A DNA stretch of 39,395 nt, taken from assembly GCA_035709005.1 (NCBI GenBank), contig DASTFB010000053.1, positions 1-39,395 of the forward strand. Reading direction: 5' to 3'. The notes under the pieces were generated by a model. That model was not told the DNA's origin, did not search any database, and saw only the letters and a program-made list of their open reading frames with translations. The position numbers and the translations under genes are program-made. The stretch comes from Candidatus Methylomirabilota bacterium. Its GTDB lineage: Bacteria > Methylomirabilota > Methylomirabilia > Rokubacteriales > CSP1-6. Of the stretch, positions 3,197 to 28,154 are shown piece by piece (within the stretch, counting starts at the first letter, position 1; every line of letters begins with the position of its first letter).

Positions 3197-3225
3197 TTGA
3201 CAGGCAGGAGCGACCATAGGCATAG
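3197..3225 (+). promoter_or_regulatory. Sigma-70-type promoter of the 2-oxoacid oxidoreductase operon
   Basis: A perfect -35 hexamer TTGACA (3197-3202) is followed after 17-18 bp by a weak -10 (GCATAG or CATAGT, 3220-3226). It lies between the pdx operon and the 3272 gene, the only intergenic gap here. The palindrome at 3229-3237 overlaps the expected transcription start. Confidence 0.5.
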
Positions 3226-3226
3226 T

Positions 3227-3238
3227 GCGGTCAGACCA
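3227..3238 (+). promoter_or_regulatory. FadR-type operator GCGGTCAGACCA
   Basis: The core GGTCAGACC is a perfect 9-bp palindrome around a central A. It matches the core of the E. coli FadR box (TGGTCNGACCA) and the broader FadR-subfamily consensus TNGTNNNACNA except at the first base. The same 12-mer, with T in place of the central A, sits in the formate dehydrogenase promoter at 27809-27820. The site covers the predicted transcription start, a position typical for repression. The FadR-family protein encoded at 12350-13114 is the obvious candidate to bind it (inference). Confidence 0.5.
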
Positions 3239-3271: not shown

Positions 3272-4480
3272 ATGGCAGCGTTGACGTGCGAGGTTGTCTA
3301 TCGCGGCATCTTTCAAAAGAACCTCGCCGCGCGGATCGCGCGCGGCATCGTCCTCAGCTCCCGCAAGGCAGGCCGCTGGGGGATCGCGTTCGGGCGCTAC
3401 GGTGACAGCCCCCAGCGCAACGGGATCCCCGCCAAGGACTTCGCCATCGTCGCCGACACCAAGGAAGAGCTCGAGCAGAACATGGCCCGCTACGAGCCCA
3501 AGCAGGTGGACGTCACCATCTGCGTGGACGACACGCTGGCCAAGGGCGTGGAATCCTGGGCCTGGTACGGGCTGCAGCCCATCAACCGACTGACCGCCCC
3601 CAACGGCACCGTCCTGATGACGTCCCTGCAGCCGATCGACGCCCTGCTCAAGGACATCCACCAGAAGGACGCCCCCTGGACGCTCAGTCTGCTCCGGGCC
3701 AAGGCCTCGTTCTCGGGCCTGTGGGTATACAAGGAAGACCACACGGAGGCCCGGATCCTCGGGGCCCTGGCCAAGATCGCTCCCAACTTCCTGAGCCTGG
3801 ACGCCGTGTGTCAGGCCATCCAGGAGTCGGAGTGGGGCTCGGATCTCAAGGTGGCCTCGGCCCGCAAGGCCCACGACCGCCTGGAGTCGCGCGCGATCAA
3901 GCCCGGCCAGGGGAACGCCGAGACGCCGTATGCCTTCGAGATGCCCCGGTGGTGGGAGATGCGCGAGGGTGTCACCATTCCGGCCATCCCCATCGGCAAG
4001 CCCAAGGAGGGCGGCAAGGGCTACGTGCCGGAGCGCAATCCCTACTTCAAGAAGTTCACCACGCGCACCATGCGGCCGGTGATCGACTTCGATACCTGCG
4101 TGAAGTGCAACCTGTGCTGGATCGCCTGTCCCGACTCCGTGTTCGACGTCATGCCGGACGGCACCTTCGACGCCAACATGGAGGCCTGCTGCGGGTGCGG
4201 TGTGTGCGAGGCGGTCTGCCCGGTCGAGAACTGCATCACGATGGTGAACGAGCAGCTGTTCGAGGACAACGCCAGCCAGTGGGAGATGTGGCGCAAGGAC
4301 AAGGCGGGCTACAAGGCCTGGATGCAGGACAAGATCGGCAACAAGAATGCGACGGTGCGCTCGCACGGCTTCCGGTTCCGCGGGCAGTACGAGCAGGAGC
4401 TCAAGCAGGACCTGGACGTGGGAGGCGTGGAGATCACCGCCGGCATCCCGGGCGAGAACGCCGAGCACAAGACGGTGTAG
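3272..4480 (+). CDS. 2-oxoacid:ferredoxin oxidoreductase, fused gamma-delta subunit
   Basis: Residues about 1-200 form the gamma domain of the pyruvate/2-oxoacid:ferredoxin oxidoreductase family. Residues about 265-335 form the delta ferredoxin domain with two [4Fe-4S] motifs, CVKCNLCWIACP starting at C276 and CCGCGVCEAVCP starting at C306. The ferredoxin domain passes electrons from the TPP centre to external ferredoxin. The 402-residue gamma-delta fusion, followed by separate alpha and beta genes, is the arrangement known for Moorella oxalate oxidoreductase; many other members encode gamma and delta separately. The start at 3272 has AGGAGG (3261-3266) upstream. The gene is first in the operon, driven by the promoter at 3197. 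A 135-bp structured spacer separates it from the alpha gene. Confidence 0.88.
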   Translation: MAALTCEVVYRGIFQKNLAARIARGIVLSSRKAGRWGIAFGRYGDSPQRNGIPAKDFAIVADTKEELEQNMARYEPKQVDVTICVDDTLAKGVESWAWYGLQPINRLTAPNGTVLMTSLQPIDALLKDIHQKDAPWTLSLLRAKASFSGLWVYKEDHTEARILGALAKIAPNFLSLDAVCQAIQESEWGSDLKVASARKAHDRLESRAIKPGQGNAETPYAFEMPRWWEMREGVTIPAIPIGKPKEGGKGYVPERNPYFKKFTTRTMRPVIDFDTCVKCNLCWIACPDSVFDVMPDGTFDANMEACCGCGVCEAVCPVENCITMVNEQLFEDNASQWEMWRKDKAGYKAWMQDKIGNKNATVRSHGFRFRGQYEQELKQDLDVGGVEITAGIPGENAEHKTV

Positions 4481-4505
4481 GCGTAAGGCGGGGAGAGACA
4501 GCGCG

Positions 4506-4595
4506 GTGAGTCGGGACTCACGCAGCGCGATCGACATGGGCGAACGGGTGGTACCGGCGGGGCGCGGGCGTGGCGAAGCCCGGGTGCCCGCGCCC
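4506..4595 (+). promoter_or_regulatory. Two-hairpin structured RNA before the oxidoreductase alpha gene (copy 2)
   Basis: Hairpin 1 is GTGAGT (4506-4511) with ACTCAC (4516-4521) around a CGGG loop. Hairpin 2 is a perfect 10-bp stem GGGCGCGGGC (4560-4569) with GCCCGCGCCC (4586-4595), containing an inner GGC/GCC stem with a GAA loop and a CGGGT bulge. Compared with copy 1 (137-230), the outer stem has AT replaced by GC on one arm and the matching change on the other, so pairing is kept. The linker between hairpins is 38 nt here and 39 nt there, and both copies end 20 nt before the ATG. It lies inside an operon, so it probably acts on translation, RNA stability or internal regulation. Confidence 0.6.
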
Positions 4596-4615
4596 TGTTA
4601 GAGGAGGCAGGATCT

Positions 4616-5845
4616 ATGGCAGTTGCCACGACAGCGGCCCGTGCCGCCGGTGAAGACAGAGAGCTCCTGATCTCGGGCAGCGAGGCGGTGGCCGAGGCCC
4701 TGACCTTGGCCGACATCGACGTCGTCACCGCCTATCCCATCCGCCCCTACGACACGGTCATGCAGGCGATCGCCAAGAAGATCTCCGGCGGCCAGCTGGT
4801 CGCCGAGTACATCGTGGCCGAGGGTGAGCACAGCCAGTTCGAGATCGTCAAGCACGCCTCCACGGTGGGCGCCCGCGTCTTCTGCGGCTCCTCCGGGGTG
4901 GGATGGGCGTATGCGATGGAGTGCCTGGTGGTGACGCCGCCGCTGCGCGTGCCCATGGTGGCCCTCGTGGGCAACCGGGCCCTGGACGACCCCGGGGCCT
5001 TCGGCGTCGAGCACAACGATGCGCTGTTCGTCCGCGACCTGGGCTGGTTGCTGGTGTGGATCGACACCTCTCAGGAGGCGCTGGACACCACCCTCATCGC
5101 CTATCGGGTGGCCGAGGACCGCCGGATCTTCCTGCCCCTGGCCATCTCGGCCGACGGGGCGTTCCTCACGCACTCCCAGGCCCTCACGCTGGTGCCGCCC
5201 AAGGAGAAGGTCGACAAGTTCCTGCCCCGCTACGATCGGGGCGATCTGCAGCTGCATCCGGACAACCCGATCACGGTGGCGCCGCAGGCCAACGAGGACT
5301 GGGTCATCGAGATCCGGCGCCAGAACGACGAGGCCATGAAGCGGGCCTACACGGTCATCGAGGAGGCCTACGCCGACTTCCGACGGGTCTTCGGCCGGGG
5401 TCCCGAGAACCCCTGGTTCGAGGAGTACATGACCGAGGACGCCGACGTGATCCTGATCGGCATGGGCACGATCTCGCTGCCCATCAAGGTCGGCATCCGC
5501 AATATGCGGGCGCAGGGCAAGAAAGTGGGGCTGGTGCGGCTGCGCTGGTTCCGCCCCTTCCCCTACGAGCAGCTGGCCCAGAGCCTGACGAAGGCCCAGG
5601 CCATCGGCGTCATCGACCGCGACTACTCGTTCGGCTCACCGTTCGCTTCGGGTGTGGTGGCCAACGAGATCCGTGCCGCCCTCTACAACGCGCCCAAGCG
5701 GCCCCCGTTGCTCAGCTTCATCGGCGGTCTAGGCGGGCGAGAAGTGACACTGGAGGACGTCTACAAGGCGACCGAGCTTTGCTACAATGCGGCGCAATCC
5801 GGCAAATCCGACGCGAAGACCCACTGGCTCGGGGTCCGGGAATAG
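4616..5845 (+). CDS. 2-oxoacid:ferredoxin oxidoreductase alpha subunit, oxalate oxidoreductase-like
   Basis: The alpha subunit holds the substrate-binding domain and helps bind TPP. In place of the usual YPITP motif of pyruvate oxidoreductases it has YPIRP, with R43 where the pyruvate enzyme has a threonine. A second arginine, R121 in GNRALDDPGAFG, lies 78 residues later. From memory, Moorella oxalate oxidoreductase uses Arg31 and Arg109 of alpha, also 78 apart, to hold the two carboxylates. AEGEHSQFE contains the probable TPP-activating glutamate (E71). The 409-residue length and the C-terminal domain III (EDADVILIGMGTI, VRLRWFRPFP) fit this subgroup. It could still act on pyruvate or another 2-oxoacid. 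AGAGGAGG precedes the ATG. Confidence 0.9.
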   Translation: MAVATTAARAAGEDRELLISGSEAVAEALTLADIDVVTAYPIRPYDTVMQAIAKKISGGQLVAEYIVAEGEHSQFEIVKHASTVGARVFCGSSGVGWAYAMECLVVTPPLRVPMVALVGNRALDDPGAFGVEHNDALFVRDLGWLLVWIDTSQEALDTTLIAYRVAEDRRIFLPLAISADGAFLTHSQALTLVPPKEKVDKFLPRYDRGDLQLHPDNPITVAPQANEDWVIEIRRQNDEAMKRAYTVIEEAYADFRRVFGRGPENPWFEEYMTEDADVILIGMGTISLPIKVGIRNMRAQGKKVGLVRLRWFRPFPYEQLAQSLTKAQAIGVIDRDYSFGSPFASGVVANEIRAALYNAPKRPPLLSFIGGLGGREVTLEDVYKATELCYNAAQSGKSDAKTHWLGVRE

Positions 5846-5857
5846 AGGGAGAGGCGT

Positions 5858-6886
5858 ATGGCGGAGACGACGTTCTCGAACGCGACGCAGATCCTCGAAC
5901 CGTTCAAGGGGATCAAGCGGGTCACCATCGAGGAGTACTTCACCTCCGGGCACCGCACGTGTCAGGGGTGCGAGTCCGCGCTGGTCATGAAGCTGATGGT
6001 GAAGGCGGCCGGTCCCCGGACGATCGTGCTCGGCTCGACCGGGTGCATGTACGTGGCCAACACCACGTACTACACCACTCCCTGGGTGGTGCCGTGGATG
6101 CACACGCAGCTGGGCTCCTCGGGGTCCGCGGCGCTGGGGACGGCCGCCGGCCTCAAGGCGCTCATGCGCAAGGGCAAGATGAAGGCCGAGCCCATCAACG
6201 TGATCGCCTTCTGCGGTGACGGTGGCGGGGCCGACATGGGTGTGGGCGCGATCTCGGCGACCTTGACCCATCGGGAGTACAACTCCCTGATCCTGCTCTA
6301 CGACAACGAGTCGTATGCCAACACCGACATCCAGTTGTCGGGGATGACGCCCTACGGCGCCCATACCACGTTCAGCCCGCCCGGCAAGGCCAAGCGCATC
6401 ATGCACACCCGCTGGAAGAAGAACATGGCCGGCATGATGGCCGCCGGCCACCCCGAGTGCCGGTACGTGGCCACGGTATGCGCCTCCTACGCGGTGGAGA
6501 TGATGAACAAGGTGCGGCGGGCGCTCAGCATCGGCGGCCCGACCTTCATACACTCGCTCGACCCGTGCCCCAAGGGCTGGGACTACGATCCGATGCTCTC
6601 GCATGAGCTGGGCGAGCTGGCGGTGGAGACCGGCCTCTTCCCGCTCTACGAGGTCGATGACGGCAACGTGAAATACTACGGCAAGACCAAGGCGATCACC
6701 GAGGGTCGCCAGCGCAAGCCGGTCCGCGAGTACCTCCTCAAGCAGGGCCGCTTCGCGCACTTCACCGAAGAGGACCTCGCCTACTTCCAAGCCAAAGTCG
6801 ACGAGATGTGGGACAAGTGGGAGATCCCCGGTGTCGTCCCGTTCCGGCGGATCGACGCGGCCAAGGCAACGTTGGCCGCGAAGTAG
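5858..6886 (+). CDS. 2-oxoacid:ferredoxin oxidoreductase beta subunit (TPP and [4Fe-4S] binding)
   Basis: The beta subunit carries TPP and the proximal cluster. C35 and C38 in RTCQGCESAL, C63 in GSTGCMYV and the Cys in DPCPKGW provide the four [4Fe-4S] ligands. The Mg-TPP motif is GDGGGAD (120-126) with N150 in YDNESYANT. MTPYGAHTTFSPPGK is the conserved loop found in this enzyme family. At 342 residues it is slightly longer than many beta subunits because of a C-terminal helical extension (about 285-342). It starts 12 bp after the alpha gene, with GGGAGAGG upstream. A terminator follows at 6924-6953, so the enzyme forms a three-gene operon. Substrate identity depends on the alpha subunit. 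Confidence 0.9.
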   Translation: MAETTFSNATQILEPFKGIKRVTIEEYFTSGHRTCQGCESALVMKLMVKAAGPRTIVLGSTGCMYVANTTYYTTPWVVPWMHTQLGSSGSAALGTAAGLKALMRKGKMKAEPINVIAFCGDGGGADMGVGAISATLTHREYNSLILLYDNESYANTDIQLSGMTPYGAHTTFSPPGKAKRIMHTRWKKNMAGMMAAGHPECRYVATVCASYAVEMMNKVRRALSIGGPTFIHSLDPCPKGWDYDPMLSHELGELAVETGLFPLYEVDDGNVKYYGKTKAITEGRQRKPVREYLLKQGRFAHFTEEDLAYFQAKVDEMWDKWEIPGVVPFRRIDAAKATLAAK

Positions 6887-7016: not shown

Positions 7017-7994
7017 ATGACCCGTGACTGGCGTGTCCTGCTGTGTTGGGCCGTGCTCCTGGCGGTCGGCGCGGTGGCCGGACCGGCCGCCGCCTGGGAG
7101 CCGTCGAAGCCGATCGAGTTCGTGATCCCGGCCGGCACCGGCGGCGGCGCCGACCAGATGGCTCGGCTCATCGCCGGCCTCGCCGAGAAGCACAAGCTCA
7201 CGCCGCGGCCCCTGGTGGTCGTCAACAAGTCCGGAGGAGCCGGCGCCGAGGGGTTCATGCACGTGAAGGGTAAGAAGGGCGACGCCCACACGATCATCAT
7301 CACGCTGTCGAACCTCTTCACGACCCCGCTGGCCACCGGGACGCCGTTCAACTGGCGCGATTACACGCCCATCGCGCGCATGGCTCTCGATCGTTTCATC
7401 CTGTGGGTCAACGCCGAGACTCCCTACAAGACGGCCAAGGAGTACGTCGAGGCCGTGAAGAAGAGCCCGGGCATGAAGATGGGCGGCACCGGCTCCAAGC
7501 AGGAAGACCAGATCATCACGGTCCAGCTGGAGCAGGCCCTGGGGCTCAAGTTCACGTACGTGCCGTTCAAGGGCGGGGGCACCGTGTGCGTGAACCTCGT
7601 GGGCAAGCACGTCGATTCCACGGTGAACAACCCCATCGAGTGCGTGAGCCACTGGAAGGCCGGGCGCGTCCGGCCCCTGGCCGTCTTCGACCCCGAGCGC
7701 GTTCCCGACAAGGACTGGAAGGAGATCCCCACCGTCAAGGAGGCGCTCGGCCTCGACATCCAGTACAACATGCTGCGCGGCATCTTCGGTCCCCCGGACA
7801 TGCCGAAAGAGGCCGTCGACTGGTACATCGGCTTCCTCAAGAAGGTGTATGACACCCCGGAGTTCCAGGACTACCTGCACAAGGGCGCCCTCAAGGGCTC
7901 GTTCGCGACGGGCGCCGAATACGTCAAGTGGGTCGAGGGGGCTGAGCAGCTCCACAAGGAGTTGATGGCGAAGGGCGGGCTCGTCAAGAAGTAG
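7017..7994 (+). CDS. Tripartite tricarboxylate transporter substrate-binding protein (TctC/Bug family)
   Basis: This is the periplasmic solute receptor of a TTT carboxylate transporter. The 325-residue protein starts with a Sec signal peptide (about 1-26, ending PAAA before WEPSKP). The Bug-fold motif PAGTGGGADQMARL (about 38-51) binds a carboxylate of the ligand. Later family segments include MKMGGTGSKQEDQ and FTYVPFKGGG. The ATG at 7017 is preferred over upstream in-frame codons because of its AGAGGAGGG ribosome binding site and because it begins the signal peptide. tctB starts on the base after the stop. The ligand cannot be read from sequence; Bug proteins bind citrate, other di- or tricarboxylates, amino acids or aromatic acids. 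Proximity to the oxidoreductase suggests a small carboxylate. Confidence 0.9.
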   Translation: MTRDWRVLLCWAVLLAVGAVAGPAAAWEPSKPIEFVIPAGTGGGADQMARLIAGLAEKHKLTPRPLVVVNKSGGAGAEGFMHVKGKKGDAHTIIITLSNLFTTPLATGTPFNWRDYTPIARMALDRFILWVNAETPYKTAKEYVEAVKKSPGMKMGGTGSKQEDQIITVQLEQALGLKFTYVPFKGGGTVCVNLVGKHVDSTVNNPIECVSHWKAGRVRPLAVFDPERVPDKDWKEIPTVKEALGLDIQYNMLRGIFGPPDMPKEAVDWYIGFLKKVYDTPEFQDYLHKGALKGSFATGAEYVKWVEGAEQLHKELMAKGGLVKK

Positions 7995-8474
7995 ATGCGG
8001 GCTGCCGACCTCATCACCGCGGCGATCCTGGCCGGCCTGGGCGGCGTCGTGCTCTACGACGCCGCCCGGCTCGGCTTCGGGTGGGGGATCGAGGGGCCGC
8101 GGAGCGGGTTCTTTCCTTTCTGGCTGGCGGTCCTGCTCATCGGCATCAGCGTCGTCGTGTTCGTCCAGGCCCTCGTCCGGCATGGCGCCACGCCCTTCGT
8201 GACGCGCCGGCAGATCGGGCCGGTCCTGAAGGTGCTCGCTCCTCTGACCGGCTTCATCGTGCTGACCGATCCTCCGGGCCCCTGGTCGGGGCTCGGCCTC
8301 TACGTTGCCGCCGCCGTGTATCTGGCCTTCTACATGCGCTGGGTCGGCCGCCACCGCTGGCTGACGGTCCTGGGCATCGCGGTGGTCGTCCCGGTGCTCG
8401 CCTTCGTCGTCTTCGAGCAGTGGTTCCTGGTCCCGATGCCCAAGGGTCCGCTCGAGGACTGGCTGGGGTACTGA
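7995..8474 (+). CDS. Tripartite tricarboxylate transporter small membrane subunit TctB
   Basis: The 159-residue protein has about four hydrophobic helices: LITAAILAGLGGVVLYDAA near the N-terminus, FPFWLAVLLIGISVVVFV, a segment around ITGFIVLTD-type sequence (about 80-120), and ITVVVPVLAFVV-like sequence near the C-terminus. The GPRSGFFPFW motif after the first helix is typical of TctB. Its job is to assist the large permease subunit. It starts at the ATG directly after the tctC stop and ends 4 bp before the GTG start of tctA, so the three genes are translated together. Confidence 0.88.
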   Translation: MRAADLITAAILAGLGGVVLYDAARLGFGWGIEGPRSGFFPFWLAVLLIGISVVVFVQALVRHGATPFVTRRQIGPVLKVLAPLTGFIVLTDPPGPWSGLGLYVAAAVYLAFYMRWVGRHRWLTVLGIAVVVPVLAFVVFEQWFLVPMPKGPLEDWLGY

Positions 8475-8478
8475 GCAA

Positions 8479-10023
8479 GTGGGGCTCGACAACCTGCTCC
8501 TGGGCTTTCAGGTCGCCATCACGCCGTTCAACCTCTTCATCGCGGTGATCGGCGTGCTCCTGGGGACGATCATCGGTGTGCTCCCGGGCCTGGGCGGGGC
8601 CAACGGGGTGGCCATTCTGCTGCCCTTGACCTTCACCATGCCGCCGACCTCGGCCATCATCCTCCTGACGTGCATCTACTGGGGCGCGCTGTTCGGCGGC
8701 GCCATCACCTCGGTGCTTTTCAACATCCCGGGCGAGCCGTGGTCGGTGGCCACCACCTTCGACGGCTACCCGCTGGCCAAGCAGGGCCAGAGCGGGCAGG
8801 CCCTCACCACCGCCTTTACCTCGTCCTTCGTGGGGGCCTTCTTCTCGATCGTGCTGATCACGTTCTTCGCGCCTATCCTGGCCGAGGTGGCGCTCAAGTT
8901 CGGGCCGCCCGAGTTCTTCGCCATCCAGCTCCTCACGTTCTCCTCGTTCGTGGGCCTGGGCGGGGGCAACCCGCTGAAGTCGCTGGCCTCGATCCTGATC
9001 GGGTTCAGCCTGGCCTCGGTGGGGTTGGACATCGTCACCGGCCAGCTCCGGCTCACCTTCGGATTCGTCGACCTCATGAAGGGCTTCGACTTCATCGTGG
9101 CCGTGATCGGGCTGTTCGGGATCGGCGAGATCCTGCTGTCCGTGGAGGAGGGCCTGCGGTTTCAGGGTGCCCCGGCCCGGATGAACACCCGCGTCGTGTT
9201 CGACACCTGGAAGATCCTGCCCCGGTACTACCGGACGTTCGTACGGGGCTCGGTGATCGGCTTCTGGATGGGCTTCAAGCCAGGCGGAGCCACGCCGGCC
9301 TCGTTCATGAGCTACGCCTTCGCCAAGCGTTTCTCCAAGCACCCCGAGCGCTTCGGCAAGGGGGAGCTCGAGGGGATCGTGGCGCCGGAGACGGCGGCGC
9401 ACGCGGCTGGTGTGGCGGCCATGCTGCCGATGATCACGCTGGGCATTCCCGGCTCACCGACGGCGGCGGTGATGCTGGGCGGGCTCATCATCTGGGGGCT
9501 GCAGCCGGGCCCGATGCTGTTCGTGGACAACCCCGAGTTCGTCTGGGGCCTGATCGCCAGCATGTACACTGGCAACGTCATCGGCGTGCTCATGGTCCTC
9601 ACGCTGGTGCCGTTTTTCGCGGCCATCCTGAGAATCCCGTTCGCCATCCTGGCCCCGCTGATCGTCGTCATCTGCTCCATCGGGGCCTACGCCGTCCACA
9701 ACAGCATGATCGACATCTGGTACATGCTGATCTTCGGCGTGGTGGGCTACGTCTTCAAGAAGCTCGACTATCCCCTGGCCCCGCTGGTGCTGGCCCTCGT
9801 GCTCGGCGACATGTCGGAAAACGCCCTCCGGCAGAGCCTGATCATGTCCCAGGGCTCGCTGACGATCTTCCTCACCCGGCCCATCACGGCCGTCATCACG
9901 GCCCTGGCCCTGTTCTTCTTCGCGCTGCCCGTCATCACCCCCTGGTGGCGGCGGCTGCGCGGACATGGGACGCTGCCCGCCGGCGCCGAGCCCACCGGGC
10001 GGGCCGCCTCGCGCGAGTCATGA
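8479..10023 (+). CDS. Tripartite tricarboxylate transporter large permease TctA
   Basis: The large permease subunit has 514 residues and about 12 membrane helices, the normal TctA size. It carries the conserved motifs VLPGLGGANGVAILLPLTF (about 35-53) and LGIPGSPTAAVMLGGL in the second half, an internally repeated signature of the family. The start is GTG at 8479, 4 bp after tctB. No stronger start exists upstream, and translational coupling explains the absence of an ideal ribosome binding site. It drives ion-coupled uptake of the ligand captured by TctC. It ends the TTT cassette; another permease follows after 46 bp. Confidence 0.93.
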   Translation: MGLDNLLLGFQVAITPFNLFIAVIGVLLGTIIGVLPGLGGANGVAILLPLTFTMPPTSAIILLTCIYWGALFGGAITSVLFNIPGEPWSVATTFDGYPLAKQGQSGQALTTAFTSSFVGAFFSIVLITFFAPILAEVALKFGPPEFFAIQLLTFSSFVGLGGGNPLKSLASILIGFSLASVGLDIVTGQLRLTFGFVDLMKGFDFIVAVIGLFGIGEILLSVEEGLRFQGAPARMNTRVVFDTWKILPRYYRTFVRGSVIGFWMGFKPGGATPASFMSYAFAKRFSKHPERFGKGELEGIVAPETAAHAAGVAAMLPMITLGIPGSPTAAVMLGGLIIWGLQPGPMLFVDNPEFVWGLIASMYTGNVIGVLMVLTLVPFFAAILRIPFAILAPLIVVICSIGAYAVHNSMIDIWYMLIFGVVGYVFKKLDYPLAPLVLALVLGDMSENALRQSLIMSQGSLTIFLTRPITAVITALALFFFALPVITPWWRRLRGHGTLPAGAEPTGRAASRES

Positions 10024-10069: not shown

Positions 10070-11434
10070 ATGGACCTGACGGCCTGGCTCGCCCTCGGCA
10101 TCTTCGTGGCCGCCATCGTCACGGTCATCGGCGGCTGGATCGATCGAGCCCTGACCGCGCTCCTCGGCGTGGCCCTCATGGTCTGGGTGGGGGTGGTCAC
10201 CGAGGATGAGGCGTTCCTGCTCGTGGACTGGAACGTCATGGCGATCCTCATCTCCATCTGGATCATCGCCGGGTACTTCGGGAAATCCGGGGTGCCCGAG
10301 TGGCTGGCCATTCAGGCCCTGCGACTGTCCGGCGGCCACGGCGGGCTCCTGGTGATGATCCTGTCGCTGCTGTCGGGCCTCGTCTCGATGGTGGTCGACA
10401 ACGTGGTCGTCATCCTCATGTTCGCGCCGGTGGCGCTGCCCCTGGTCCGCCACCTGGGTCTGCCGCTGACGCCGGTGATCCTCATGATCGGCTTCAGTGC
10501 CAACTTCATGGGCTCGGCCATGCTGCTGGGCGACCTGCCGCCCCAGATGCTGCACAGCGTCTCGGGGGCGGAGTTCGTGGACTTCATCTGGCACCAGGGC
10601 TTGCCGTCCTCGTTCCCCATCCTGTTGGTCACGTTCCTGGCCACGCTGGGCGGCATGTACCTCTACGGCTTCCGGACGTACGGCGTCCGGACGCCGCAGG
10701 CCGCGGCGAGCGTGTCCGGGAACCCCCGTCCGGTCGGCGCCGGGACGGCCGCGAACGCGCTGGACGCCAGCGCCCGGATTCCCCATCTGCGGTTCGCCCT
10801 GACGGTGGTGGGGATGTTCGTGCTGACGATCGTCGCCATGGCCTTGCGGGAGCTCTTCGGCGTCAAGCTCGGCTTCATCGCCATGAGCGGCGCCGTGCTG
10901 ACAGTGCTGGTGGTCGAGGTGCTCTTTCGCGGGCGTGAGCGGCCGGAGTTCGAGGCGATCCTGGCGGAGCTCGACTGGCGGGCGATCCTCTTCTACATCG
11001 GCCTCTTCGCCCTCGTCGGCGCGGTCGAGAAGACGGGCGTCCTCGAGCGGCTCGCCCACGTGCTCATCCCCATGTTCGTGGCCAACCTCGCCCTAGGCGC
11101 CACGCTGCTGTATTGGGTCACGGTGCCGATCGTCGGCATCGTCGAGCACGACGCGTACATCCTCACGTTCCTCTACACGATCCGCGATCTCGGGCAGCAG
11201 GGGGTGGATCCGTGGCCGCTCTGGTGGATGCTCCTCTGGGCCGGAACGCTGGGCTCGAATCTCACGGTGGCGGGGGCGCCGGCGCTGTACGTGGCGCTCA
11301 ACATCTGCGAGCGGGAAGAGAAGATGACGATCTCGGTCGGCACCTTCCTCCGCTGGAGCGTGCCGTTCGTCGTGCTGTCCACGATCATCTGCTACGCGAT
11401 CGGCATGGCGATCTGGGTCTTGCCGCGCGCATGA
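10070..11434 (+). CDS. SLC13/ArsB-NhaD superfamily permease
   Basis: The 454-residue polytopic protein has about 11-12 membrane helices. It belongs to the ion-transporter superfamily that includes CitT, ArsB and NhaD. The half-helix motif SMVVDNVVVILMFAPVALPL (about 103-122) and the related C-terminal segment GTLGSNLTVAGAPALYVALN (about 391-410) are the two pseudo-symmetric substrate and ion-binding hairpins. Transport of dicarboxylates, arsenite or Na+/H+ exchange are all possible. The location beside a TTT carboxylate transporter favours an organic acid (inference). The ATG at 10070 is preceded by GAGGAAGA. It probably belongs to the same operon as the TTT genes and the downstream stress protein, which starts 22 bp later. 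Confidence 0.75.
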   Translation: MDLTAWLALGIFVAAIVTVIGGWIDRALTALLGVALMVWVGVVTEDEAFLLVDWNVMAILISIWIIAGYFGKSGVPEWLAIQALRLSGGHGGLLVMILSLLSGLVSMVVDNVVVILMFAPVALPLVRHLGLPLTPVILMIGFSANFMGSAMLLGDLPPQMLHSVSGAEFVDFIWHQGLPSSFPILLVTFLATLGGMYLYGFRTYGVRTPQAAASVSGNPRPVGAGTAANALDASARIPHLRFALTVVGMFVLTIVAMALRELFGVKLGFIAMSGAVLTVLVVEVLFRGRERPEFEAILAELDWRAILFYIGLFALVGAVEKTGVLERLAHVLIPMFVANLALGATLLYWVTVPIVGIVEHDAYILTFLYTIRDLGQQGVDPWPLWWMLLWAGTLGSNLTVAGAPALYVALNICEREEKMTISVGTFLRWSVPFVVLSTIICYAIGMAIWVLPRA

Positions 11435-11456: not shown

Positions 11457-12353
11457 ATGCGCGTTCTCGTCGCCACCGACGGCTCGAGCGGTGCCCGCGC
11501 CGCGGTGGACTGGCTCGCTCGGTCCTTCCCCGGCGCGGGCGCGACCGTCACCGTGGTGAGCGTGGTGGCCGGGCCCCCCGCGGTCGCCGGCGGGGAGGCC
11601 GAGCGGCTGCGCGCCGTGGCCACCAGCGTGGCCGAGCGCGCGGTCGGGGAGGCACGGGCGGCGCTGTCCGCGCGCTGGCCCGAGGCGGACGGGCGCGTGC
11701 TCGACGGCGACCCGCGCGAGGAGCTCGCGCGCCTCGCCGAGGCCGAGCGGGCCGACCTCCTCGTGGTGGGCGCGGCCGGGCTCGGCGGCGTCCGTCGCTT
11801 CCTGCTGGGCAGCGTCTCCCGCGCGATGGTGCGCCACGCGCCCTGCCCGGTGCTCGTCGTGAAGGGGAGCGCGGCCCGGACCGAGACGACGATCGTCGCG
11901 GTGGACGGCTCTTCGCACGCGCTGGAAGCGGTTCGCTACTTCGCCGCGCTGGGCCTCGAGCTCGCAGGCGGCGTGCTCGTGCTCGGGGTCGTCGAGCCGG
12001 TCCGATGGCCGAGGGCCAAGCCGGTCGCCTTGAGCGCGCAGGTGCGCCAGGCCGCTCGGGAGCTGGGCGAGCGGCGGCGGAGCGAGATGCAGGAGGCGGT
12101 CGCGCAGGCGGCCGCGGAGCTCCGGGAGCGGGCCACACCGGTGGAGACGGTCCTCTCCGAGGGCCGGCCGGCTCAGAAGATCGTGGAGACGGCCCGCAAG
12201 CGGGGCGCCGGGCTGGTCGTCGTCGGCGCCCGCGGCGTGGGGACGATGATGCGCCTCGTGCTCGGCAGCGTCTCGGAGGCGGTGCTGAACGACGCGCCCT
12301 GCCCGGTCCTGGTGGTCCGAGCGAAGAGGGCGACCACGGGAGGAGTTCCATGA
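11457..12353 (+). CDS. Tandem universal stress protein (two UspA domains)
   Basis: The 298-residue protein is two UspA domains in tandem, about 1-142 and 147-296. Each starts with a beta-strand and an Asp (VLVATDGSS, TIVAVDGSS). Each ends with the ATP-binding signature G-x2-G-x9-GS (GAAGLGGVRRFLLGS and GARGVGTMMRLVLGS) followed by a PCPVLVV strand. Both copies therefore look nucleotide-competent. Such proteins often regulate adjacent transporters or respond to starvation and redox stress. A GTG lies two codons upstream, but it overlaps the GGGAGGTG ribosome binding site, so the ATG at 11457 is preferred. The stop overlaps the next start (ATGA at 12350). Confidence 0.9.
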   Translation: MRVLVATDGSSGARAAVDWLARSFPGAGATVTVVSVVAGPPAVAGGEAERLRAVATSVAERAVGEARAALSARWPEADGRVLDGDPREELARLAEAERADLLVVGAAGLGGVRRFLLGSVSRAMVRHAPCPVLVVKGSAARTETTIVAVDGSSHALEAVRYFAALGLELAGGVLVLGVVEPVRWPRAKPVALSAQVRQAARELGERRRSEMQEAVAQAAAELRERATPVETVLSEGRPAQKIVETARKRGAGLVVVGARGVGTMMRLVLGSVSEAVLNDAPCPVLVVRAKRATTGGVP

Positions 12354-13114
12354 GCACGGCGAGACGCCGACCGGAGGGCCGGGGCGCGCGCGAGATGGCG
12401 TTGGAACCGATCAAGTCGACCCGCATCTACGAGGAGATCGTCCGCCAGATCAAGGCCATGATCGCCGAGGGGCGGCTCAAGAGCGGTGACCAGCTGCCCC
12501 CCGAACGAGACCTGGCAGGGAAGTTCGTGGTCAGTCGCACCTCCGTCCGGGAGGCGCTGCGAGCCCTGGAGAGCCTGGGGTTCGTGGAGATCCGGCCCGG
12601 CGAAGGCACGTTCGTGCGCGAGGTGTCCGTGGAGGCGCTGATCGAGCCGCTGGCCCTGGTGCTGGCCACTCAGCGCGAGGCCATCGGCGACCTCTTCGAG
12701 GCGCGGCGGCTGCTCGAGCCCGCCATCGCCGCCTTGGCGGCCCGCCGGGCCACCCCGGACGAGATCCAGGAGATGGAGCGCATCCTCGACGAGCAGGCCA
12801 AGGAGATCGACCGCGGGGGCACGGGTCTTCTCCAGGACGACCAGTTCCACTCGGCCATCGCCGCCGCCGCCCACAACCAGGTCATCACCCGGCTCGTGCA
12901 CGCGATCATGGACCTGCTCACGCAAGGCCGGGAGGAGTCGCTGCACACCCCGGGTCGTCCGCAGCGCTCCCACCAGGACCACCAGCGCGTGCTCGACGCC
13001 ATCCGCCGTCGTCAGGCGAGCGCGGCCGAGCAGGCCATGCGCGAGCACGTGATCGCCGTGGAGGCCCTGGTGCTGGGCCCCGAGGCCGTGGCCCGGCGGG
13101 CGAAGAGCCGCTGA
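12350..13114 (+). CDS. FadR-subfamily GntR transcriptional regulator (FCD domain)
   Basis: The N-terminal winged helix-turn-helix spans about 25-90, with SGDQLPPERDLAGKF and the recognition helix region SRTSVREALRAL, close to the FadR sequence TRTTLREVL. The C-terminal FCD ligand-binding domain (about 100-240) has the metal-site pattern: D and H in DDQFH, then HQRVLDAI and MREHV. FCD regulators usually sense small carboxylates such as lactate, pyruvate, glycolate or malonate. The gene is the last in the transporter operon, overlapping the stress-protein gene by 4 bp, with GGGAGGAG before the ATG at 12350. A later ATG at 12395 is a less likely start. The FadR-like sites at 3227 and 27809 are its candidate targets. 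Confidence 0.9.
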   Translation: MSTARRRPEGRGAREMALEPIKSTRIYEEIVRQIKAMIAEGRLKSGDQLPPERDLAGKFVVSRTSVREALRALESLGFVEIRPGEGTFVREVSVEALIEPLALVLATQREAIGDLFEARRLLEPAIAALAARRATPDEIQEMERILDEQAKEIDRGGTGLLQDDQFHSAIAAAAHNQVITRLVHAIMDLLTQGREESLHTPGRPQRSHQDHQRVLDAIRRRQASAAEQAMREHVIAVEALVLGPEAVARRAKSR

Positions 13115-13294: not shown

Positions 13295-13335
13295 GAGGGC
13301 CACGGGTGGGCGGCACCCGTGGCCCTCGCTTTTTT
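13295..13335 (+). terminator. Intrinsic terminator/attenuator upstream of ppdK
   Basis: A perfect 14-bp stem (13295-13308 with 13314-13327) has a 5-nt loop and is followed by GC and six Ts (13330-13335). It is the strongest intrinsic terminator in the window. It lies downstream of the promoter at 13132 and upstream of the ppdK ribosome binding site, so it must be read through for ppdK expression. It acts either as an attenuator or as the end of a small RNA of about 165 nt. Confidence 0.75.
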
Positions 13336-13359
13336 GGCCTGGGAGGAGTGGAGGGAGCC

Positions 13360-16042
<2,683 letters not shown>

Positions 16043-16050
<8 letters not shown>

Positions 16051-27800: not shown

Positions 27801-27829
27801 TTGACAACGCGGTCTGACCAACCGTAGAG
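27801..27829 (+). promoter_or_regulatory. Promoter of the formate dehydrogenase structural operon
   Basis: A perfect -35 TTGACA (27801-27806) is followed after 17 bp by GTAGAG, or after 18 bp by TAGAGT. The FadR-like palindrome lies in the spacer between the two boxes. The first gene downstream starts at 27879. Confidence 0.5.
27809..27820 (+). promoter_or_regulatory. FadR-type operator GCGGTCTGACCA
   Basis: GGTCTGACC (27811-27819) is a 9-bp palindrome identical, apart from its central base, to the site at 3229-3237 in the 2-oxoacid oxidoreductase promoter; the flanking GC and A also match. Lying between -35 and -10, binding here would block RNA polymerase. Confidence 0.5.
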
Positions 27830-27878: not shown

Positions 27879-28154
27879 ATGCCCAACAGTCTCACGGACT
27901 GGCTCCAGAAGAGCCGTCTCACCGTTGTTTCGGTCGACGCCACCCGGGGCCGCCTGAGAGTGCGCGGAGAGGCCGACCTGTGCTCGGAGCTGTCCTGCGG
28001 GGAGGGCACGTTGGTGGTGGCCAACGAGGGCGAGGGAAACCTCGAAGCCCTGAATCCCGGGGACATCATCAAGGTCGAGCCAAAGAGCGGTGGCGCCCAG
28101 ACGATCACCGTGTTGCGCCGAGCCTGGGAAGAGATCGCCAGCCCCGAGGTCTGA
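27879..28154 (+). CDS. Small uncharacterised protein preceding formate dehydrogenase
   Basis: The 91-residue protein is first in the transcript from the promoter at 27801, with GAGGAGGGA before its ATG. It looks like a small beta-rich soluble domain: LTVVSVDATRGRLRVRGEA, LVVANEGEG and PGDIIKVEPKSGG could be alternating strands. There are two cysteines in ADLCSELSCGEG. There is no signal peptide. It lies 64 bp before the catalytic subunit gene, so it may be a maturation factor or a small sensor, but nothing identifies it. I do not recognise the family. Confidence 0.7.
   Translation: MPNSLTDWLQKSRLTVVSVDATRGRLRVRGEADLCSELSCGEGTLVVANEGEGNLEALNPGDIIKVEPKSGGAQTITVLRRAWEEIASPEV

Follow-up and report, generated by a model that had tools for sequence, protein, structure and literature searches.

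A three-subunit enzyme that resembles oxalate oxidoreductase

Which acid does the three-subunit, ferredoxin-linked enzyme encoded at positions 3272-6886 of contig DASTFB010000053.1 (assembly GCA_035709005.1; Candidatus Methylomirabilota bacterium; Rokubacteriales, CSP1-6) oxidise? A sequence-only reading of this stretch of 39,395 nucleotides, analysed as a whole and called here the window, had proposed a 2-oxoacid:ferredoxin oxidoreductase (OFOR) with the hallmarks of the oxalate oxidoreductase (OOR) of Moorella thermoacetica. Our comparisons make it likely that the genes encode an oxalate:ferredoxin oxidoreductase, which would convert oxalate to two CO2 and reduced ferredoxin and would represent a second OOR subfamily, sister to that of Moorella. 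We refer to the two enzyme types as window-type and Moorella-type. The earlier reading had located all three open reading frames (ORFs) correctly and, judged by their sequences, they are those of a thiamine pyrophosphate (TPP)- and 4Fe-4S-dependent 2-oxoacid:ferredoxin oxidoreductase:

3272-4480, + strand: gamma-delta fusion subunit, 402 aa, with an OFOR gamma domain and two 4Fe-4S ferredoxin sites
4616-5845, + strand: alpha subunit, 409 aa; matches PDB 5c4i chain A at E = 4e-96
5858-6886, + strand: beta subunit, 342 aa, the TPP-binding half; matches PDB 5c4i chain C at E = 2e-88

The best PDB sequence match of all three subunits was the M. thermoacetica OOR (PDB 5c4i, 5exd and 5exe; NCBIfam NF045790, NF045791 and NF045792). 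Alpha matched it with 325.7 bits (next 206.7, a pyruvate enzyme), beta with 300.1 bits (next 210.6) and gamma-delta, through 5c4i chain B, with 64.8 bits (next 46.6). With such an E value for alpha and genes that recur in at least three phyla, the resemblance is well outside chance. The AlphaFold (AF2) model of alpha, with a pLDDT of 86.5, had 5c4i as its top fold match (TM 0.91, 42% identity), followed by the pyruvate enzyme 9bt4 (TM 0.89, 31% identity). As in Moorella OOR, there are three subunits with gamma and delta fused, and the fusion is genuine, the hhalign probability to Moorella-type gamma/delta being 99.9% across both halves. The sequence-only reading had counted this fusion as a match to the Moorella enzyme, which it is; as a marker it fails, because many Moorella-type loci have separate gamma and delta ORFs.

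By homology, the three subunits carry the ligands for three 4Fe-4S clusters. Eight conserved cysteines lie between C276 and C316 of gamma-delta (276/279/282/286 and 306/309/312/316), and beta C35, C38, C63 and C237, conserved in both enzyme types together with beta N155, are probably the ligands of the proximal cluster. The four beta and eight delta cysteines have their equivalents in Moorella OOR, as do the alpha residues corresponding to R31/R109, D112, F117 and E120, whereas overall the two alpha subunits are 42-43% identical.

Residues and phylogeny of the alpha subunit

The proposal of an OOR rested on two alpha arginines 78 residues apart, R43 of a YPIRP motif and R121, which had been equated with Arg31 and Arg109 of the Moorella enzyme. 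A phmmer alignment with 5c4i chain A confirmed this correspondence: R43 (YPIRPY) aligns with R31 and R121 with R109, and both pairs are 78 apart. As hallmarks, however, the two differ. R43, which in the window alpha replaces the threonine of the YPITP motif of pyruvate enzymes, has an arginine counterpart in 66/66 distinct window-type and 82/82 distinct Moorella-type alphas, and T or S occupies this position in the eight pyruvate-type alphas compared (8/8). A counterpart of R121 was found in every OFOR alpha examined, all pyruvate-type ones included (R114 in the pyruvate:ferredoxin oxidoreductase, PFOR, of Desulfovibrio africanus). Thus, on the alignments, R43 is the only diagnostic residue among the hallmarks cited, and R121 is generic to the superfamily. 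In the published comparison, OOR and the Sulfolobus OFORs are said to share a single conserved position, the Arg109 equivalent, and YPIRP is described as unique to Moorella OOR (PMC5020499).

The plug loop that follows R121 both links and separates the two types. D124 and F129 of the window match Moorella OOR, and pyruvate-type alphas have, respectively, other letters and I/L/V there. The window loop reads L-D124-D125-P-G-A128-F-G, and that of OOR L-D-P-P-G-D116-F-G. At the five positions R31, D112, 113, 116 and F117, all 82 distinct Moorella-type alphas have R-D-P-D-F and all 66 distinct window-type alphas R-D-D-A-F; no intermediate was seen, in a Moorella-type set made up mainly of the 80 loci nearest Moorella OOR and in cross-phylum searches that kept matches of E 1e-110 or better, so that intermediates could be missed. 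Residues 122-131, which make up this loop, are the sole internal stretch of the alpha model with pLDDT below 50; this fits a mobile loop but may also reflect alignment variation. The conserved EH motif of alpha keeps its glutamate, E71. In five relatives (L033-L037) the first Glu of EGEH is Ala or Ser (AASEHDQ, ASSEHDQ) and the second is kept; the idea that these relatives have lost the catalytic TPP glutamate was considered and rejected, since the conserved EH-motif glutamate corresponding to E71 is present.

Phylogeny of alpha, which the sequence-only reading had named as a check, placed the window enzyme with Moorella OOR and not with the pyruvate-type, as sister and not nested within the Moorella-type. 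Pyruvate-type, Moorella-type and window-type sequences each formed one group, with an SH-aLRT of 99 on the branch that splits them, and the last two were joined as sisters to the exclusion of the first. Note that this was a quick tree of 80 rows, with SH-aLRT and not bootstrap values, from which phenylglyoxylate, indolepyruvate and 2-oxoglutarate enzymes were left out.

Could the enzyme nevertheless be an ordinary pyruvate or broad 2-oxoacid:ferredoxin oxidoreductase with an unusual YPIRP? We regard this as very improbable. The PFORs (Methanosarcina acetivorans 9bt4, Moorella 6ciq, D. africanus 1b0p) share with it the superfamily, the fold and the layout of TPP and 4Fe-4S clusters, and PorA_Arch is the second-best NCBIfam profile of alpha, at 326.6 bits against 366.5 for OOR. 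However, they have YPITP and not YPIRP, another loop after the arginine and a separate tree branch, so that both residues and tree place the window alpha outside their group. Moreover, single mutants of the YPITP residues of an archaeal OFOR were inactive or had a much lower kcat (PMC5020499), and the transporter context also argues against a pyruvate enzyme.

Transporters adjoining the enzyme point to oxalate

The genes that follow the enzyme encode a complete tripartite transporter set (7017-10023, by Pfam), a further permease and a regulator:

7017-7994, + strand: TctC, substrate-binding protein of a tripartite tricarboxylate transporter (Pfam PF03401), probable oxalate binder by sequence
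7995-8474, + strand: TctB, small membrane subunit (Pfam PF07331, 65 bits)
8479-10023, + strand: TctA, large membrane subunit (Pfam PF01970, 513 bits)
10070-11434, + strand: CitMHS/ArsB-type permease, accessory (Pfam CitMHS, 175.9 bits)
12350-13114, + strand: GntR/FCD transcriptional regulator, PdhR/LldR-like (Pfam GntR and FCD), probable regulator of the cluster

That adjacent carboxylate transporters would fit uptake of the substrate, as had been suggested, gains support from TctCBA and from the oxalate-pointing context in relatives. In the window's family, all 13 long neighbourhoods (L186-L198) have TctC, TctB and TctA after the enzyme, as does L218, and the GntR/FCD gene comes further downstream in the same order. 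The CitMHS/ArsB-type permease was found in just one other examined neighbourhood (L194). After the regulator, in all the family neighbourhoods examined at length, comes a pyruvate, phosphate dikinase gene (13306-16050 in the window; TIGR01828, 1325 bits).

Most TctC proteins that adjoin Moorella-type OORs in Methylomirabilota, Myxococcota, Thermodesulfobacteriota and Nitrospirota share 61-69% identity with that of the window; the nearest paralogue within the window's genome shares 37%. In addition, an OxlT-family MFS transporter adjoins the window-type enzyme at seven Acidobacteriota loci and at L181, from the Chloroflexota search, scoring 473-572 bits against a TIGR04259 cut-off of 335 (L162, which is partial, scores 237). 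The same occurs in the window's own family: L213 (G062), whose alpha is 90% identical and which has PdxS-PdxT upstream as in the window, carries an OxlT homologue (TIGR04259, 457 bits) directly after beta, where other members carry TctC. OxlT is an oxalate:formate antiporter (8hpj, 8hpk; TIGR04259) in which Arg272 and Lys355, both conserved across the OFA family, hold oxalate (PMC10070484); the complete OxlT-type neighbours retain both residues. Where these homologous enzymes are bordered by OxlT, the window has TctCBA instead, and OxlT-style exchange for formate would not suit an enzyme whose sole carbon product is CO2. Two Acidobacteriota genomes hold two window-type clusters each (L160 and L164 in G179; L162 and L165 in G227), with an OxlT-type gene at each.

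The gene context therefore supports oxalate as the substrate: since two enzyme types that are 42% alike share close binding proteins and a transporter family, a shared substrate is the best explanation. Homologous Moorella-type loci also share the regulator family. The context bears as well on another explanation, in which the substrate is a different acid or diacid of small size for which two arginines are required, for example glyoxylate, mesoxalate (oxomalonate) or oxamate, and in which the D116A/P113D exchange marks a change of substrate. The clean separation of the window-type clade from Moorella-type OOR and the plug loop that differs without exception would suit it, as would a Methylomirabilota genome (G003/G106) that appears to hold both types, a Moorella-type enzyme on contig C16 (L044) and a window-type one on C414 (L035), as if for two substrates. 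That window-type copy, however, is carried by a separate contig of 5.7 kb and clusters with a different family, and may be a contamination or binning error, or a transfer. With the OxlT-type transporters and the close TctC homologues shared with Moorella-type OOR loci on the other side, we consider another acid improbable.

Points against oxalate, and other oxalate routes

Several results weigh against an oxalate oxidoreductase. OOR was the best NCBIfam family for each subunit, yet every score fell under its equivalog cut-off (alpha 366.5 against 500, beta 352.5 against 590, delta, OxalOxreddelta, 76.9 against 230). Asp116 of the OOR plug loop, which is reported to act with Arg31 in a 'bait and switch' and has been called mechanistically important (PMC5020499), is A128 in the window and Ala throughout its clade, a difference that the sequence-only reading had passed over. 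We found no assayed enzyme of the window-type clade. The TctC proteins of two Moorella-type loci (L080, L083) are just 41-44% identical to that of the window; small carboxylates other than oxalate are also within the range of OFA-family transporters and of TctC proteins, and the OxlT Arg/Lys pair is OFA-wide. Finally, a CoA-dependent route is possible in this genome, where the best match to formyl-CoA transferase (Frc) lies narrowly under the curated cut-off (481.9 against 504.2) and a gene resembling oxalyl-CoA decarboxylase (Oxc) or 2-hydroxyacyl-CoA lyase is found elsewhere.

Because Asp116 is absent and the curated cut-offs are missed, membership in the Moorella-type OOR was rejected, and the enzyme should not be filed there; on sequence grounds it belongs to a sister clade most likely working like OOR. 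The earlier claim of oxalate oxidation to CO2 with ferredoxin has gained from the alpha tree and the gene context. The sequence-only reading was correct on the sequence and probably on the chemistry, in part on grounds that do not discriminate.

As to the missing acid, it may have moved. In our judgement the chances are about even that the plug-loop acid has been relocated to D125, three residues before A128 and in the place of OOR Pro113, and not lost. Beta D157 may be a second candidate: a clade-specific Gly-to-Asp change, it adjoins N155, at a position where OOR has Gly beside the active-site Asn. Read from the alignment, N155 would be the equivalent of Asn996 of D. africanus PFOR, which rotates when pyruvate binds (PMC5020499).

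The profile search of the window's genome found neither Frc nor Oxc over its curated cut-off. The best Oxc match scored 376.3 against 739.4; the Oxc-like gene, which lies on contig 130, stays under every cut-off and has acetolactate synthase as its top model. Within the phylum, Oxc was above the cut-off in 1/95 genomes (G049). By sequence, we found no strong oxalate candidate in this genome other than the present enzyme. Since no complete Frc/Oxc route, the canonical one forming glyoxylate, was found, the carbon of oxalate would leave as CO2. This favours a role in the supply of reduced ferredoxin or in oxalate detoxification, and not in growth, a possible though less likely reading that concerns the role and does not compete with oxalate as substrate. 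In the papers that we consulted, oxalate use was nowhere reported for Rokubacteria or Methylomirabilota; it has been predicted for sponge-associated Tectomicrobia (PMC10227082).

Proposed mechanism

In the mechanism that we propose, oxalate would enter by the adjacent TctCBA transporter, and TPP would add to it in the alpha-beta active site, where R43 and R121 would bind its carboxylate groups. Release of the first CO2 would leave a carboxylate-TPP intermediate. Two electrons would then travel singly to ferredoxin by way of the beta cluster and both delta clusters, and the remaining carbon would depart as the second CO2. D125, or alternatively beta D157, may take the place of Asp116 as the acid. 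The net reaction would be oxalate to two CO2 with two electrons on ferredoxin, involving neither CoA nor formate.

A conserved operator-like palindrome heads the cluster

Upstream of the enzyme genes lies a candidate control region:

3197-3238, + strand: probable promoter, with TTGACA at 3197-3202 and the operator-like palindrome CGGTCAGACCA at 3228-3238

The palindrome resembles the TGGTnnnACCA operators to which PdhR and LldR bind. GGTnnnACC occurred within the 140 bases upstream of gamma-delta in 46/78 loci, against about 5 expected by shuffling; these regions include related rows and some repeat a genome, so the 46 are not independent events. In nearly all loci of the family its distance to the start codon is 40-90 bases, and TTGACA usually precedes it by about 30 bases; the family consensus after TTGACA is (C/T)GGTCNGACCA, in many cases with a second GACC half site behind it. 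The palindrome is also found near the regulator gene in several Chloroflexota and class-relative loci, and it heads the cluster in about ten Moorella-type loci. The window alone has two sites, and 12 of 100 shuffles also reached two, so that a chance match is possible there; the support for an operator comes from its conservation in relatives and not from the counts in the window.

This palindrome is probably the site at which the GntR/FCD protein (12350-13114) acts on the cluster as its regulator. The closest NCBIfam models of the protein are NanR, LldR and PdhR, all under cut-off. A GntR/FCD homologue was near the enzyme in 42/55 loci, with both enzyme types, and in most Acidobacteriota, Chloroflexota and class-relative loci it lies directly upstream of gamma-delta.

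The second palindrome copy, CGGTCTGACCA, is at 27810-27820, about 280 bases before the ORF that begins at 28090. This ORF encodes the alpha subunit of a formate dehydrogenase-N (TIGR01553, 1180 bits) and is surrounded by genes for FdhD, the beta subunit, an NrfD-type and an FdhE-like protein.

Distribution of the two enzyme types

Most members of the window's family have the enzyme, with an alpha identity of 83-90% or higher, and in class relatives the identity is 67-70%. In the phylum, 57/95 genomes had a match at E 1e-60, mostly window-type, with a few Moorella-type or pyruvate-type. Conservation of the three genes reaches at least three phyla: the window-type clade spans Methylomirabilota, Acidobacteriota (8/297 genomes) and Chloroflexota (16/301), together with one genome in another phylum (1/297 genomes of the phylum to which a genome labelled Deltaproteobacteria belongs), and across these other phyla the alpha identity is 54-77%. 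In a sample of 398 genomes, drawn from the phylum to which a genome labelled Betaproteobacteria belongs, we found no window-type enzyme, an empty result that is weak here. The plasmid collection gave no close relative, with identities of about 35% or less among the matches listed.

The sequence-only reading had described the capability as known mainly from an acetogen, and this holds for the biochemistry only. Moorella-type homologues were found in Bacillota, Methylomirabilota, Acidobacteriota, Pseudomonadota, Nitrospirota, Thermodesulfobacteriota, Chloroflexota and Verrucomicrobiota, and enzymes with R31, D112, D116 and F117 (L053-L132) occur in many phyla well beyond the acetogens. A gene for a CDC48/p97-like AAA ATPase of about 700 aa lies near the Moorella-type OOR in 23/25 loci examined (L040, L041, L044, L045 and among L053-L127), scoring under the TIGR01243 cut-off in Methylomirabilota. 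In contrast to these clusters, that of the window lacks it, and a search of the window's genome gave no match at E 1e-150.

Significance

Oxalate is common in soils, plants and fungi, and its use is usually surveyed via the CoA route; a large gut survey left out oxalate oxidoreductase for lack of information (PMC8062136). If our assignment is true, a CoA-free, ferredoxin-linked route of oxalate oxidation has been kept throughout an uncultured Methylomirabilota order and in relatives from its class, and reaches other phyla. We see arguments of similar weight for and against the further proposal that the window-type enzyme is a second, mechanistically distinct class of OOR with a moved loop acid (D116A and P113D, possibly aided by beta D157), and that it serves as the principal route for oxalate in the order to which the window belongs and in some Acidobacteriota and Chloroflexota. 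These lineages would then be oxalate oxidisers that frc/oxc surveys miss. The invariant loop swap between the sister clades offers a direct test of the role of the loop acid in one-carbon TPP chemistry.

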